A DNA stretch of 64,000 nucleotides, from contig NZ_JAJAVH010000007.1 in assembly GCF_020511115.1 (NCBI RefSeq), forward strand, positions 310,001-374,000, written 5' to 3'. This stretch comes from Luteimonas panaciterrae (GTDB lineage Bacteria; Pseudomonadota; Gammaproteobacteria; Xanthomonadales; Xanthomonadaceae). Each line of letters starts with the position of its first letter. Position 1 is the first letter of the stretch. The position numbers and the translations under genes are program-made. Positions 1 to 5,598 of the stretch are shown here, piece by piece. The notes under the pieces are model-generated. The model had not been told where the DNA came from and did no database searches. It saw only the letters and a program-made list of their open reading frames with translations.

Positions 1-1715
1 TAATCTTCGAGGTACCGGCCGATGCTGACGAGTTCCTCGCGCCAGCCCTGGCGATCCATGGCAAAGAGCTTTTCCTTCGCCTCGTCGCTCAACTCGACGC
101 CATCCAGGTTGAGATCCGCGACAGCCGGCAGCGCGCCGATCGGCGTATCGACCGCACCGGCCTCGCCCTTCACGCGGCCGATCATCCACTCCAGCACGCG
201 CAGGTTGTCGCCGAAGCCGGGCCACAGGAACTTGCCGCCGTCGCCCTTGCGGAACCAGTTGACGTGGAAGACCTTCGGCAACTTCGCGCCCGGCTTGTCG
301 AACGACAGCCAGTGGGCGAAGTAGTCGGCGAAGTTGTAGCCGCAGAAAGGTTTCATCGCCATCGGGTCGCGGCGCATCACGCCGACCTGGCCGGTGGCGG
401 CGGCCGTGGTCTCGGAGCCCATCGAGGCACCGACCAGCACGCCGTGCGTCCAGTCGCGCGCTTCGAACACCAGCGGCACGAGCGAGGCGCGGCGGCCGCC
501 GAAGACGATCGCCGAGATCGGCACGCCCTGCGCGGCCTCGGCATGCGGCGAGTACGACGGGCACTGCTTCGCGCTCACCGTGAAGCGTGAGTTGGGGTGC
601 GCGGCCGGGCCGTTGTCGGCTTTGTAATCGCGGCCTTGCCAATCCTTGGCGGGAACGCGGTCGTCGAGACCTTCCCACCACGGCTGGTTGTCGGCGGTCG
701 TGGCGACGTTGGTGAAGATGGTGTCGCGCTGGATGCTGGCCAGCGCATTGGGATTGGAGTTGGCGCCGGTGCCGGGCGCGACGCCGAAGTAACCGGCCTC
801 AGGATTGATCGCGTACAGGCGGCCATCCGCGCCGGGGCGCATCCAGCAGATGTCGTCGCCGACAGTCCAGACCTTCCAGCCACGCTCGCGATAGCTCTCC
901 GGCGGAATCAGCATCGCCAGATTGGTCTTGCCGCAGGCGCTCGGGAAGGCGGCGGCGATGTAATGCACTTCACCTTGCGGATTCTCGATGCCGACGATCA
1001 GCATGTGCTCGGCCAGCCAGCCCTCGTTGCGCGCCTGATGCGAGGCGATGCGCAGCGCATGGCATTTCTTGCCGAGCAGTGCGTTGCCGCCGTAGCCGGA
1101 GCCGTAGGACTTGATGGTGAGTTCTTCCGGGAAATGCATGATGTAGCGGCGCTCGGGATCGAGCTCGCCGATCGAATGCAGTCCACGCACGAAACTCTCC
1201 TCACGCTCGATCCGCGCCAGCGCGTCCGCGCCCATGCGCGTCATGATGCGCATGTTGGCGACGACGTAAGGCGAGTCGGTGATCTCCACGCCGCAGCGCG
1301 CCAGCGGCGAGTCGATCGGGCCCATGCAGTACGGGATCACGTACATGGTGCGGCCGCGCATGCAGCCGTCGAACAGGGCGTCGATCTTGGCGTGGGCTTC
1401 GGCCGGCGCCATCCAGTGATTGTTGGGGCCGGCGTCTTCCTCGTTTTCGTGGCAGACGAAGGTGAGGTGCTCCACGCGCGCCACGTCGTCCGGATGCGAG
1501 CGGTGCAGCCAGCTGCCCGGATGGGTGTCGGCATTGAGCGGCAGCAGAGTACCGTCGGCCTGCATCTGCTTCAGGAGCGCGGCGTATTCGGCATCGCTGC
1601 CGTCACACCAGTGGATGCGATCCGGCCGGGTCAGTCCGGCGACGGACTGGACCCAGTCATTGAGCGCCTCGAGCGAACTGGGGGAGGGATTCGACGGGGC
1701 GATCGCGGCATTCAT
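1..1715 (-). CDS. pckG: Phosphoenolpyruvate carboxykinase (GTP), C-terminus cut off
   Basis: Converts oxaloacetate and GTP to phosphoenolpyruvate, CO2 and GDP, the committed step of gluconeogenesis, in the cytoplasm. Reading the minus strand from ATG 1715 gives 571 open codons ([12 protein letters not shown]...). They carry the GTP-PEPCK P-loop [12 protein letters not shown] (Lys about residue 263) and the late block [16 protein letters not shown]. The visible protein ends at GRYLED on the window edge. The family is near 600 residues, so about 30 C-terminal residues lie outside. Only 9 bases separate it from the upstream TetR gene on the same strand, so the two are probably cotranscribed. The GTP-dependent family is unrelated in sequence to the ATP-dependent PckA of enteric bacteria. 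Identity is secure; only the C-terminus is unseen. Confidence 0.95.
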
Positions 1716-1724
1716 TACGAGTTC

Positions 1725-2342
1725 TCAGGTTTGGGATTTCGGGGGAATCACCACGGCCATCATGTGCTCGACATAGGCTTCCAATTCTTCACGTGGCGGC
1801 TTGGCCTGCTGCAACTGTAGTTGCAGCTGTAGAAAGCCCACGTATGCGGCGTAGACAAGGCGCGCCCGGTGCTGGGCGTCGCTGCGGGTCAGTCCGGCCT
1901 GGCGGAACGAAGCGGTGAGGTAGTCCAGGCGCCGTTGTGAGACGCGTTCCATCACCGGTCGCACGATCGGATGATCCAGCGCTTTGAGCAGCGCGCTGAA
2001 GATGATGTGGGAGGTGACCTCGTGGGCGACCATCTGAAAGAGGTCGCGCAGGCGCTGGCGCGGGTCCGGGACGGCTTCGAGCATGCCGAAGACGGACTGC
2101 TGCTCGATGCTTTCCCAGCGTTCGAGCGCCGCCTGCAGCAGCGCGTCGCGCGAGGGGAAGTGCCAGTAGAAGCTGCCCTTCGTTACTCCGAGGCGCCGCG
2201 CGAGCGGCTCCACCGCCACGGCGGCGACGCCCTGCTCGGCGATCAGGTGAAGAGCAGCCTGGGCCCAGTCCTCGGCGCTGAGGCGCCCTTTGCGTTCCGG
2301 TTTTTCGGCAACCGGGGCCGTATCGGTGGCGGTCGTCATCAT
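1725..2342 (-). CDS. TetR/AcrR-family transcriptional regulator
   Basis: A one-component repressor of about 205 residues. The N-terminal helix-turn-helix is clear (LARRLGVTKGSFYWHFPSRDALLQAALERWE region). The ligand-binding C-terminal half is not assignable to a subfamily by eye. The start is uncertain: tandem ATGs lie at 2342 and 2339, with an ATG at 2357 and a GTG at 2369 also in frame and no convincing Shine-Dalgarno before any of them. It is 9 bases upstream of pckG on the same strand and divergent from fadE. A palindrome overlapping the fadE -10 (2468-2485) is a natural operator. By context I infer that it senses an acyl-CoA or fatty acid, as PsrA/FadR-type TetR proteins do, and links beta-oxidation to gluconeogenesis; the ligand is unproven. 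Confidence 0.85.
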   Translation of the reverse strand: MMTTATDTAPVAEKPERKGRLSAEDWAQAALHLIAEQGVAAVAVEPLARRLGVTKGSFYWHFPSRDALLQAALERWESIEQQSVFGMLEAVPDPRQRLRDLFQMVAHEVTSHIIFSALLKALDHPIVRPVMERVSQRRLDYLTASFRQAGLTRSDAQHRARLVYAAYVGFLQLQLQLQQAKPPREELEAYVEHMMAVVIPPKSQT

Positions 2343-2444
2343 GGGCAGTGTAACCATACGCAGAGGCACGGAAAAGTATCGTTCATGAATCCGCGTTCAT
2401 TCCCGGGCCCTATCGGGCCTTATCGGACTTCGCCAGAACTTCGA

Positions 2445-2485
2445 TTGACAACTCAAAAAATACTACTCCATACTAGGCCGTATGG
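2445..2485 (+). promoter_or_regulatory. fadE promoter with overlapping TetR-type operator
   Basis: A perfect TTGACA -35 lies at 2445-2450. An 18-base spacer leads to CATACT at 2469-2474, which matches 4 of 6 positions of TATAAT. A perfect inverted repeat CCATAC-N6-GTATGG (2468-2485) covers that -10, the classical position for repression. It sits in the divergent region between the TetR gene and fadE. Confidence 0.6.
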
Positions 2486-2559
2486 TAATACCAGCGGTCG
2501 CGCCACGGTAACCCGACACGGCCTAGTCTCTCCTTCTAAGTAGTTCCCGGAGTGCACAG

Positions 2560-5034
2560 ATGAGCATCGCGCTTCCCTTCCTCGCTTTCCTTCTCGTGGG
2601 CGCATTCGCCGCCTACCATCGCCTGCGTCTGGCGTACTGGGCCGCGATCACCGCCACTCTGCTGGTGGCTTGCTGGCTGCTCGGCGTCAACCAGACGGCC
2701 GTGATCGTGGCCGCCGCGCTGGTCGCACTGATCGCGGTGCCGCTACTGCTGCCGCCGATCCGCAAGGCGCTGATCACCGCGCCCCTGCTGAAGGGTTACC
2801 GCAAGGTGCTGCCACCGCTGTCGCAGACCGAGCGCATCGCGCTGGAAACCGGCTCGGTCGGTTTCGAAGGCGAGCTGTTCTCCGGCGATCCGGACTGGAA
2901 GCAGCTGCTCTCGCAACCGAAGGCGCAGCTCACCGCCGAGGAGCAGGCCTTCCTCGACGGCCCGGTGGAAGAACTGTGCAAGCACACCAACGATTGGGAA
3001 ATCACCCACATCCTGGCCGACCTGCCGCCGGAGACCTGGGAATACATCAAGAAGCACAAGTTCTTCGGCATGATCATCCCGAAGGAATACGGCGGTCTCG
3101 GCTTCTCGGCGCTGGCGCACCACAAGGTGATCCAGAAGCTGGCTTCGGTGTCGAGCGTGCTCAGCTCCACCGTCGGCGTGCCCAATTCGCTCGGCCCGGG
3201 CGAACTGCTGATGCACTACGGCACGAAGGAACAGAAGGACTACTACCTGCCGCGTCTGGCCGACGGCCGTGAAGTGCCCTGCTTCGGCCTGACCGGTCCG
3301 TTCGCCGGCTCCGACGCCACGTCCATCCCCGACTACGGCATCGTCTGCAAGGGCGAGTGGAACGGCGCGCAGGTGCTCGGCGTGCGCCTCACCTTCGACA
3401 AGCGCTACATCACGCTCGCCCCGGTGGCGACGCTGATCGGCCTGGCGTTCCGTCTGTACGATCCGGACGGCCTGATCGGCGACAAGCGCGACGTCGGCAT
3501 CTCGCTGGCGCTGGTGCCGCGCGATACCGCCGGCGTTGAAATCGGCCGTCGCCATTTCCCGCTCAATTCCACCTTCCAGAACGGCCCGATCCGCGGCCGC
3601 GATGTGTTCGTGCCGCTGTCGCAGCTGATCGGCGGTGAGGAATTCGCCGGCAAGGGCTGGCTGATGCTCAACGAGTGTCTGTCGATCGGCCGCTCCATCA
3701 CCCTGCCCTCCACCGCCAGCGGCGGCGGCAAGATGGGCGCGGTCGTCACCGGTGCCTACGCGCGCATCCGCAAGCAGTTCGGCCTGTCGGTCGGCCGCTT
3801 CGAAGGCGTCGAGGAAGCACTCGCCCGCATCGGCGGCAAGGCCTACACGGCCAGCGCACTGGCGCAGGCCACGGCGATGGCGGTCGATCGCGGCGAGAAG
3901 CCGGCGGTGCCGTCGGCGATCGCCAAGTATCACTGCACCTCGATGGGCCGCGAACTCTCGTCCGACATCATGGACGTGCTCGGCGGCAAGGGCATCATCC
4001 TCGGCCCGCGCAACTTCGCCGGCCGCGCCTGGCAGGCGGCGCCGATCGCGATCACCGTGGAAGGCGCCAACATCATGACGCGCAGCCTGCTGATCTTCGG
4101 CCAGGGCGCGATCCTGTGCCATCCGTGGGTGCTGAAGGAAATGAAGGCGGCGCAGAACACCGACGTGAAAGCCGGGCTCGCCGAGTTCGACCGCAGCCTG
4201 TTCGGCCACATCGGCTTCGCCATCTCCAACGCCGTGCGTTCGTTCTGGTTCGGCCTGACCGCCGCGAAGATCGGTTCGGCACCGGGCGACGACTACACGC
4301 GCCGTTATTTCCGCAAGCTCGATCGCTACTCCGCCAACCTGGCGCTGATCGCCGACGTGTCGATGCTGCTGCTCGGCGGCAAGCTGAAGTTCAAGGAATC
4401 GCTGTCGGGTCGCCTGGGTGATGTGCTCAGCAACCTCTACATCACCAGCGCCATGCTCAAGCGCTACCACGACGAAGGCGCGCCGGTCGCCGACCAGCCG
4501 CTGCTGGCCTGGGCTTTCCACGACGCCGTGCACAAGATCGAACTGGCGCTGTCGGGCGCGCTGCGCAACTTCCCGATCCGTCCGGTCGGCTGGCTGCTGT
4601 GGGCGCTGGTGTTCCCGTGGGGACGCCGCGCGCAGGCGCCGAGCGATCGCCTCGGCCACCGCGTCGCCGCCCTGCTGATGGCGCCGAACGAAGCACGCGA
4701 CCGCCTCGGCAACGGCGTGTTCCTCACCCCGTGCGAGAACAACCCGGCTGGCCGCATCGACAGCTATCTCGCCAAGGCCGTGCTGGCCGAACCGGTGGAG
4801 CGCAAGTTCCTCAAGGCGCTGAAGAACAGCGATATCGAGGCGCTGGAGTTCACCCAGCAACTCGACGAGGGCGTGCGCGAAGGCTGGATCACGGCCGACG
4901 AGCGCAAGCAGCTGGAAGAACTGCGTGCGATCACGCTCGACACGATCACGGTCGACGACTTCGATCCGCACGAACTGCGCGCGGCCACCTACTACGACCG
5001 CAAGCAACCGCAGCCTTCGCGCGAGGCGGCATAA
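2560..5034 (+). CDS. fadE: Acyl-CoA dehydrogenase FadE
   Basis: FAD-dependent first step of fatty-acid beta-oxidation, forming the trans-2-enoyl-CoA. At 824 residues it matches the long FadE type (814 in E. coli) rather than short mitochondrial-type dehydrogenases. Residues 1-70 contain two hydrophobic segments that should tether it to the inner membrane. The dehydrogenase core follows (PKEYGGLGFSALAHH, CFGLTGPFAGSDA, a segment ending in GRELSSDIMDVLGGKG), then the C-terminal FadE extension. The start ATG follows the weak GGAG of TTCCCGGAGTGCACAG. It is expressed divergently from the TetR-pckG unit and is followed by a hairpin and a DUF4442 gene that may be part of the same operon. Identity is secure. 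Confidence 0.95.
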   Translation: MSIALPFLAFLLVGAFAAYHRLRLAYWAAITATLLVACWLLGVNQTAVIVAAALVALIAVPLLLPPIRKALITAPLLKGYRKVLPPLSQTERIALETGSVGFEGELFSGDPDWKQLLSQPKAQLTAEEQAFLDGPVEELCKHTNDWEITHILADLPPETWEYIKKHKFFGMIIPKEYGGLGFSALAHHKVIQKLASVSSVLSSTVGVPNSLGPGELLMHYGTKEQKDYYLPRLADGREVPCFGLTGPFAGSDATSIPDYGIVCKGEWNGAQVLGVRLTFDKRYITLAPVATLIGLAFRLYDPDGLIGDKRDVGISLALVPRDTAGVEIGRRHFPLNSTFQNGPIRGRDVFVPLSQLIGGEEFAGKGWLMLNECLSIGRSITLPSTASGGGKMGAVVTGAYARIRKQFGLSVGRFEGVEEALARIGGKAYTASALAQATAMAVDRGEKPAVPSAIAKYHCTSMGRELSSDIMDVLGGKGIILGPRNFAGRAWQAAPIAITVEGANIMTRSLLIFGQGAILCHPWVLKEMKAAQNTDVKAGLAEFDRSLFGHIGFAISNAVRSFWFGLTAAKIGSAPGDDYTRRYFRKLDRYSANLALIADVSMLLLGGKLKFKESLSGRLGDVLSNLYITSAMLKRYHDEGAPVADQPLLAWAFHDAVHKIELALSGALRNFPIRPVGWLLWALVFPWGRRAQAPSDRLGHRVAALLMAPNEARDRLGNGVFLTPCENNPAGRIDSYLAKAVLAEPVERKFLKALKNSDIEALEFTQQLDEGVREGWITADERKQLEELRAITLDTITVDDFDPHELRAATYYDRKQPQPSREAA

Positions 5035-5118: not shown

Positions 5119-5598
5119 ATGTCCGCGTCCGTCCTGTCCCTATATCGCCGCATCAGCCGCTGGCCCGCGGGCCACTGGCTGTTCTCACGGCTGATCTGCG
5201 TGAAGGCGCCCTACTTCAGCAGCATCTCGCCGCGCATGACCGTGCTCGAACCCAATCGCGGCGAAGCCACCATCACGCATCGCCGGCGCGTCACCAACCA
5301 TCTGGGCACCGTGCATGCGATCGCGTTGTGCAACCTGGCCGAATTCGTCGGCGGGCTGACCACCGACGTCAGCATTCCCGCCTCGATGCGCTGGATTCCC
5401 AAGGGCATGACCGTGGAATATCTGAAGAAGGCCGTCGGCACGCAGCGCGCGGTGGCGACGCCGGAATTCCCGCCACGTGAATCGGCGGAGGGCTACGAAT
5501 TGCCGATGAATATCGTGGTCACCGATCCGCAAGGCGATGCGGTGTTCAAGGCACGCATCTCGATGTGGGTGTCGCCGAAACCGGCGCGCGGCAGCTGA
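5119..5598 (+). CDS. DUF4442 hotdog-fold protein, possible acyl-CoA thioesterase
   Basis: A 159-residue protein with the pattern of DUF4442/PaaI-like hotdog proteins: an amphipathic N-terminus, the central NHLGTVHAIALCNLAEFVGG helix and strand-rich ends. It has an ideal start, with AGGAGG at 5108-5113 five bases before ATG 5119. Hotdog proteins typically hydrolyse acyl-CoA or bind acyl chains. The position right after fadE fits a role in releasing or buffering acyl-CoA, which is inference. The next gene starts 4 bases after its stop, so the two are coupled. Family fairly sure; substrate unknown. Confidence 0.75.
   Translation: MSASVLSLYRRISRWPAGHWLFSRLICVKAPYFSSISPRMTVLEPNRGEATITHRRRVTNHLGTVHAIALCNLAEFVGGLTTDVSIPASMRWIPKGMTVEYLKKAVGTQRAVATPEFPPRESAEGYELPMNIVVTDPQGDAVFKARISMWVSPKPARGS

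Follow-up and report, generated by a model that had tools for sequence, protein, structure and literature searches.

In the genome of Luteimonas panaciterrae, a gene for a TetR-type regulator lies between fadE and pckG, the gene for the GTP-type phosphoenolpyruvate (PEP) carboxykinase. The arrangement raises the question whether one acyl-responsive repressor governs both neighbours, and with them beta-oxidation and gluconeogenesis, as the original prediction for this DNA had proposed. In the window, the whole stretch of 64,000 nucleotides that was analysed, the layout is as predicted. On the minus strand, 9 bases separate the end of tetR at 1725 from the ATG of pckG at 1715; fadE is divergent from tetR and begins at 2560 on the plus strand. 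The perfect CCATAC-N6-GTATGG repeat that had been placed on the fadE -10 element occupies 2468-2485 and does overlap the CATACT hexamer at 2469-2474. The features of the locus are as follows.

1..1715, minus strand: pckG, GTP-type PEP carboxykinase; PEPCK_GTP domain; 3' end outside the window; 9 nt after tetR
1725..2342, minus strand: tetR, orthologue of tfmR by sequence; TetR_N domain; a GTG at 2369, further upstream, is another open start
2354..2371, minus strand: O3, candidate autoregulation site; exact half-site GTATGG (2359-2354) with a degenerate partner
2445..2474, plus strand: predicted fadE promoter, TTGACA-18 nt-CATACT, from a promoter-pattern match
2468..2485, plus strand: O1, probable TfmR operator, CCATAC-N6-GTATGG, over the fadE -10 region, from sequence match and conservation
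2560..5034, plus strand: fadE, acyl-CoA dehydrogenase; ACDH_C domain (FadE type)
5119..5598, plus strand: gene for a DUF4442 protein, after fadE

The TetR regulator and its relatives

The tetR product has a TetR-family N-terminal helix-turn-helix domain (PF00440, E 8.7e-15) and is, over residues 17-200, 80% identical to the product of a Xanthomonas euvesicatoria gene (L065) that lies 1.1 kb from a divergent fadE. By this comparison, which was made with the X. euvesicatoria gene and not with the X. citri protein, the regulator of the window is an orthologue of TfmR. The X. citri TfmR (XAC3052) is described as repressing mhpC/fadE through direct binding to this promoter, from which long-chain fatty acids release it, and its gene is likewise divergent from fadE (PMC6637906). 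The same authors noted the tfmR/fadE arrangement across the Xanthomonadales, and the absence of mhpC from it in X. albilineans, Lysobacter and Luteimonas (PMC6637906). The supposition that this gene combination had no described precedent survives for the trio, in so far as none of the literature matches listed, in a search with subscription titles mostly outside its scope, reports tfmR, fadE and pckG together or the operator discussed below. The tetR/fadE half was already described, and the locus is therefore not a new switch. An operator sequence is stated in neither of the two TfmR papers in the passages searched, and phosphoenolpyruvate and gluconeogenesis, as search terms, are not mentioned in the searched text of PMC6637906. 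Unlike the locus studied here, the Xanthomonas genomes of four loci (L038, L045, L061, L065) have no match to a GTP-type pckG. The X. oryzae TfmR is reported to act as an activator that binds rpfG and hrpX, a role that falls outside the model proposed below.

Within the family, 194 of 198 genomes contain a TfmR-like gene at E<=1e-20, with a single match in 193, and a match at E<=1e-22 was present in 14 of the 369 genomes of a class-wide sample. The detailed comparison covered 110 loci, namely the window, 29 relatives from the search of the family genomes, and 80 loci kept from a second similarity search, among which the closest named relative is Luteimonas aquatica, with a TetR protein of 96% identity. 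A match to a divergent fadE lies upstream of tetR in all 110, which include loci titled Xanthomonas, Stenotrophomonas, Lysobacter, Luteimonas, Arenimonas, Rhodanobacter and Dyella.

Other TetR regulators of fatty acid metabolism bear comparison with TfmR. PsrA and Smlt2053/XAC2014 are also TetR repressors of beta-oxidation genes whose binding is affected by fatty acids, but they have a different operator, and Smlt2053 and XAC2014 are reported to share an operon with fadB/fadA-type genes (PMC10304680). FadP of betaproteobacteria is a TetR regulator of fatty acid degradation, likened to TfmR by its description and not by sequence, and Shewanella PsrA, again likened by description, reaches into central metabolism with aceBA, sdh and gltA; the searched passages of the same source give no link to pckG for either (PMC5343134). 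Membership in the PsrA group was considered and rejected, as the palindrome at 2468-2485 differs from the PsrA box as described and has fadE and pckG, not fadBA, as its neighbours.

Conservation of the palindrome

The palindrome CCATACTAGGCCGTATGG is the sole perfect match to CCATAC-N6-GTATGG in the window. When up to two mismatches are allowed, the window contains two matches, and 18 of 100 shuffled sequences reach that number. A single palindrome in a single window is weak evidence; its recurrence across relatives is far beyond chance. Within the 420 nt that precede the aligned start of tetR, all 110 loci have a site with at most two mismatches. The best site has no mismatch in 72 of them, one in 36 and two in 2, compared to sites within two mismatches in 25 of 2200 shuffled sequences. 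The count includes the window and its close relatives, which weigh heavily because similarity to the window's protein governed the choice of loci; by exact upstream sequence, 103 of the 110 are distinct.

The position of the palindrome points to a role at the fadE promoter. Between 1600 and 2620, the sole promoter-like match combines TTGACA (2445-2450) and, after 18 nt, CATACT (2469-2474). As the latter hexamer lies inside 2468-2485, the palindrome covers the predicted -10 element of fadE. Of the 103 distinct loci, 71 have a TTGACA in the orientation of fadE at a distance of 14-17 nt from O1, and 41 have at least two sites within one mismatch (overlapping in L031).

In 60 whole genomes of the family, the exact pattern occurs 43 times, and the reversed pattern once. 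By coordinates, 37 of these 43 sites are at most 600 nt upstream of tfmR, five lie elsewhere, and one (in G050) could not be placed; 20 of the 60 genomes lack an exact site. Looser matches are less informative. Genome-wide, 60 sites at two mismatches against 47 for the reversed pattern are not clearly an enrichment, and in X. euvesicatoria the corresponding numbers are 69 and 89. Genome-wide sites at two mismatches were left out of the analysis.

The association between regulator and palindrome extends to distant proteins. Among nine TfmR-like genes of at most 45% identity, eight (L167-L172, L174 and L175; 34-45% identity, all outside the order) have an upstream site within one mismatch. A site within two mismatches was not found in the stretches fetched for L173 (37% identity) and for L166, which is from the same order and has 61% identity. 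Taken together, the data indicate that the palindrome is very probably the operator of TfmR.

Four of the loci from outside the order (L168, L170, L171 and L172) have the TfmR-like regulator followed by fadE in the same direction, with the sites upstream of the regulator. This suggests an autoregulated regulator-fadE operon in these organisms.

The place of pckG

The proximity of tfmR and pckG is widespread in the family. In 129 of 144 genomes (101 of 111, and 28 of 33 more), pckG follows tfmR on the same strand within 500 nt, a count that leaves out G120, G135 and G187 with their fragmentary pckG. In 13 of the 15 exceptions, pckG keeps the strand of tfmR and lies 0.8-6.6 kb downstream; in the remaining two, it is found 127 kb away on the other strand or on another contig. 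The gap between tetR and pckG is shorter than 60 nt, with one overlap, in 30 of 59 loci. However, pckG is not universal. A match at E<=1e-60 is absent from 51 of the 198 family genomes, 48 of which keep tfmR; the three that lack both (G007, G030, G041) are 72-87% complete. Among 12 named genomes, ten gave no pckG match, which does not represent a frequency, as a missing or displaced pckG was the main reason for including these genomes.

If TfmR repressed pckG directly, an operator would be expected nearby. In 63 distinct 220-nt stretches upstream of pckG, none has an operator within two mismatches and one has a match at three mismatches, a level at which the reversed pattern gives three. Across the tetR-pckG junction, with the final part of tetR and the first part of pckG included, there is no operator within two mismatches and one at three, compared to 0.42 and 4.9 after shuffling, and one of 58 loci (L028) has an exact half-site in the gap or the final 60 nt of tetR. 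For displaced or separated pckG genes, 12 stretches from 10 genomes were searched, with about 0.2 sites expected at up to two mismatches: L161 has a site at two mismatches 37 nt before pckG, L160 has one at three mismatches, and the other ten have none (L121 and L122 stem from the genomes of L096 and L093). Direct operator control of pckG is thus not supported by the sequence comparison. The proposal of one acyl-responsive repressor for both genes therefore fares well for fadE, by the orthology of TfmR and the conservation of the operator, and poorly for pckG, by the lack of operators in the 63 upstream stretches and the retention of tfmR in nearly all genomes without pckG. Conservation of the arrangement and of the palindrome, which the original prediction had proposed as a check, is borne out for both.

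One alternative is that the adjacency is inherited synteny without regulatory meaning, and that pckG has its own promoter everywhere. The absence of operators near pckG is consistent with this, as is the loss or displacement of pckG in several lineages with no visible change at tfmR-fadE. The far side of pckG speaks in both directions. When 37 adjacent loci are compared all against all, a similar stretch on this side is common to 112 of 666 pairs, and 11 groups result, of which the largest has 17 members, so that the far side, too, is partly shared. However, the far side is broken more often than the tfmR side, as indicated by the number of groups and by the finding that the gene which the window has there recurs in 4 of 38 loci. 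This comparison is one-sided, since pckG next to tfmR was the criterion by which the 37 loci had been selected. Simple synteny is conceivable, and somewhat doubtful as the full account.

Alternatively, tetR and pckG could form one autoregulated transcript, with TfmR acting at a half-site before tetR, so that fatty acids would raise both fadE and pckG. This would be the predicted switch by another route, and read-through from a perhaps autoregulated tetR promoter is the only way in which pckG could still be tied to fatty acids. The 9-nt gap in the window, the short gaps elsewhere, and the frequent adjacency despite greater rearrangement beyond pckG fit this idea. An extra exact half-site between the operator and tetR residue 26, moreover, occurs in 85 of 103 loci, compared to 6.9 expected by shuffling. 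In the window, it lies at 2354-2359 and adjoins a -10-like TACACT (2352-2347, assigned by eye), with O3 just upstream of this element, and it may in part be just an extended -10. The half-site is also found in loci without adjacent pckG (Xanthomonas, Stenotrophomonas), and in X. citri, a reporter for the tfmR promoter was reported to be unchanged in activity in a tfmR deletion (PMC6637906). The latter result applies to X. citri, and the four Xanthomonas genomes searched here have no GTP-type pckG. A terminator-like hairpin with a T run separates tetR from pckG in three Rhodanobacter loci (L106, L109, L110), and in long gaps, promoter-like stretches that could serve pckG are recognizable by eye. 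No such hairpin was found in the other 55 of the 58 loci tested, so that read-through may occur there. On balance, we regard a common autoregulated transcript as unlikely. The same judgement applies to a lineage-specific version, according to which TfmR would bind its own promoter half-site where gaps are short, pckG would be read through, and one fatty acid signal would open beta-oxidation and gluconeogenesis from a single intergenic region, with lineages that insulated or lost pckG having dropped the link; this scenario, too, seems rather improbable. The connection of pckG to a gluconeogenic switch is unproven from the sequences.

In the window, the stretch 2337-2352 has the tetR -10-like element a few bases before ATG codons at 2342 and 2339, and the tetR transcript may be leaderless.

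Other genes preceded by the probable operator and the proposed regulation

Outside the tfmR-fadE region, four of the five exact sites in the family genomes precede an orphan DUF4442 gene (G000, G028, G016, G009), and the fifth precedes a gene that appears, by eye, to encode a TonB receptor. An upstream site within two mismatches was found for the orphan DUF4442 gene in 21 of 30 loci, out of 53 genomes with the gene, and for a gene pair encoding an LEA protein and an acyl-CoA dehydrogenase in 14 of 30 loci, out of 58. The reversed pattern gave none in 30 for either. When the discovery loci (three and one, respectively) are dropped, 18 of 27 and 13 of 29 remain. The theme common to the operator-bearing genes is acyl-CoA oxidation and thioester chemistry. 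The model predicts less well for fadH, which in X. citri has been reported as a target of TfmR. The best site at the fadH-like gene of X. euvesicatoria has three mismatches, and the fadH-like gene of the window's genome has no site within three mismatches; both results, with fadH-like genes assigned by PF00724 and length, count against the model.

Individual sites can be listed as observations, those at one mismatch from single genomes without a matched control. In the window's genome, an orphan DUF4442 gene that follows what is, by eye, a thioredoxin-like gene has an exact palindrome 37 nt ahead of its ATG (L115:2076-2093, C77:18575-18592). Sites with one mismatch precede a 4HBT acyl-CoA thioesterase gene of this genome (L118:2402-2419, 44 nt from the ATG), which occurs in only 2 of 60 family genomes, a gene with a Peptidase_S15 domain (L116, also from this genome), and a LEA_2 protein gene with an acyl-CoA dehydrogenase gene (L117:2363-2380). 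In X. euvesicatoria, an etfB-like gene with an ETF domain is preceded by a site with one mismatch (L247:1501-1518), and so is a hydrolase gene (L248:1501-1518) which, judged by eye, looks similar to the Peptidase_S15 gene. The exact palindrome before the TonB-receptor-like gene (L153:1501-1518, from G027) lies about 550 nt beyond pckG; the TonB receptor gene beyond pckG in the window's genome (L259) has no site within two mismatches.

It is highly improbable that the palindrome serves another regulator, such as a PsrA-type regulator of fadBA: the Xanthomonadales also have a PsrA-like TetR regulator, but its box, G/CAAAC(N2-4)GTTTG/C, is unlike the palindrome (PMC10304680), which accompanies TfmR-like genes even at 34-45% identity outside the order, in eight of nine loci.

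We therefore favour, with good though not complete confidence, control of fadE by TfmR through its operator, with pckG as a neighbour that is not directly repressed. A TfmR dimer would bind CCATAC-N6-GTATGG over the fadE -10 element; that it occupies exactly 2468-2485 is suggested by the conservation of the operator at this place. Bound TfmR would block transcription of fadE, and perhaps of the DUF4442 gene behind it, until long-chain fatty acids, or the corresponding CoA esters, release it. Repression and release are carried over, by analogy, from the work in X. citri. The same operator would mark a small set of acyl-CoA genes elsewhere. As for pckG, we infer that its transcription here is probably read-through, coming either from tetR or from a promoter within that gene, and that some relatives use a promoter belonging to pckG itself. 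As pckG has no operator and would be transcribed in one of these ways, TfmR would not repress it directly. The model gives no firm reason for the widespread adjacency of tfmR and pckG.

Adjacency to pckG, by itself, should not count as shared control. The analysis points to a known repressor with a newly predicted operator, and it offers a testable 18-bp site for a regulator whose published targets lacked a stated one in the text searched. The predicted regulon is small, and would consist of fadE, DUF4442 genes, the acyl-CoA dehydrogenase pair, and perhaps an electron transfer flavoprotein gene.
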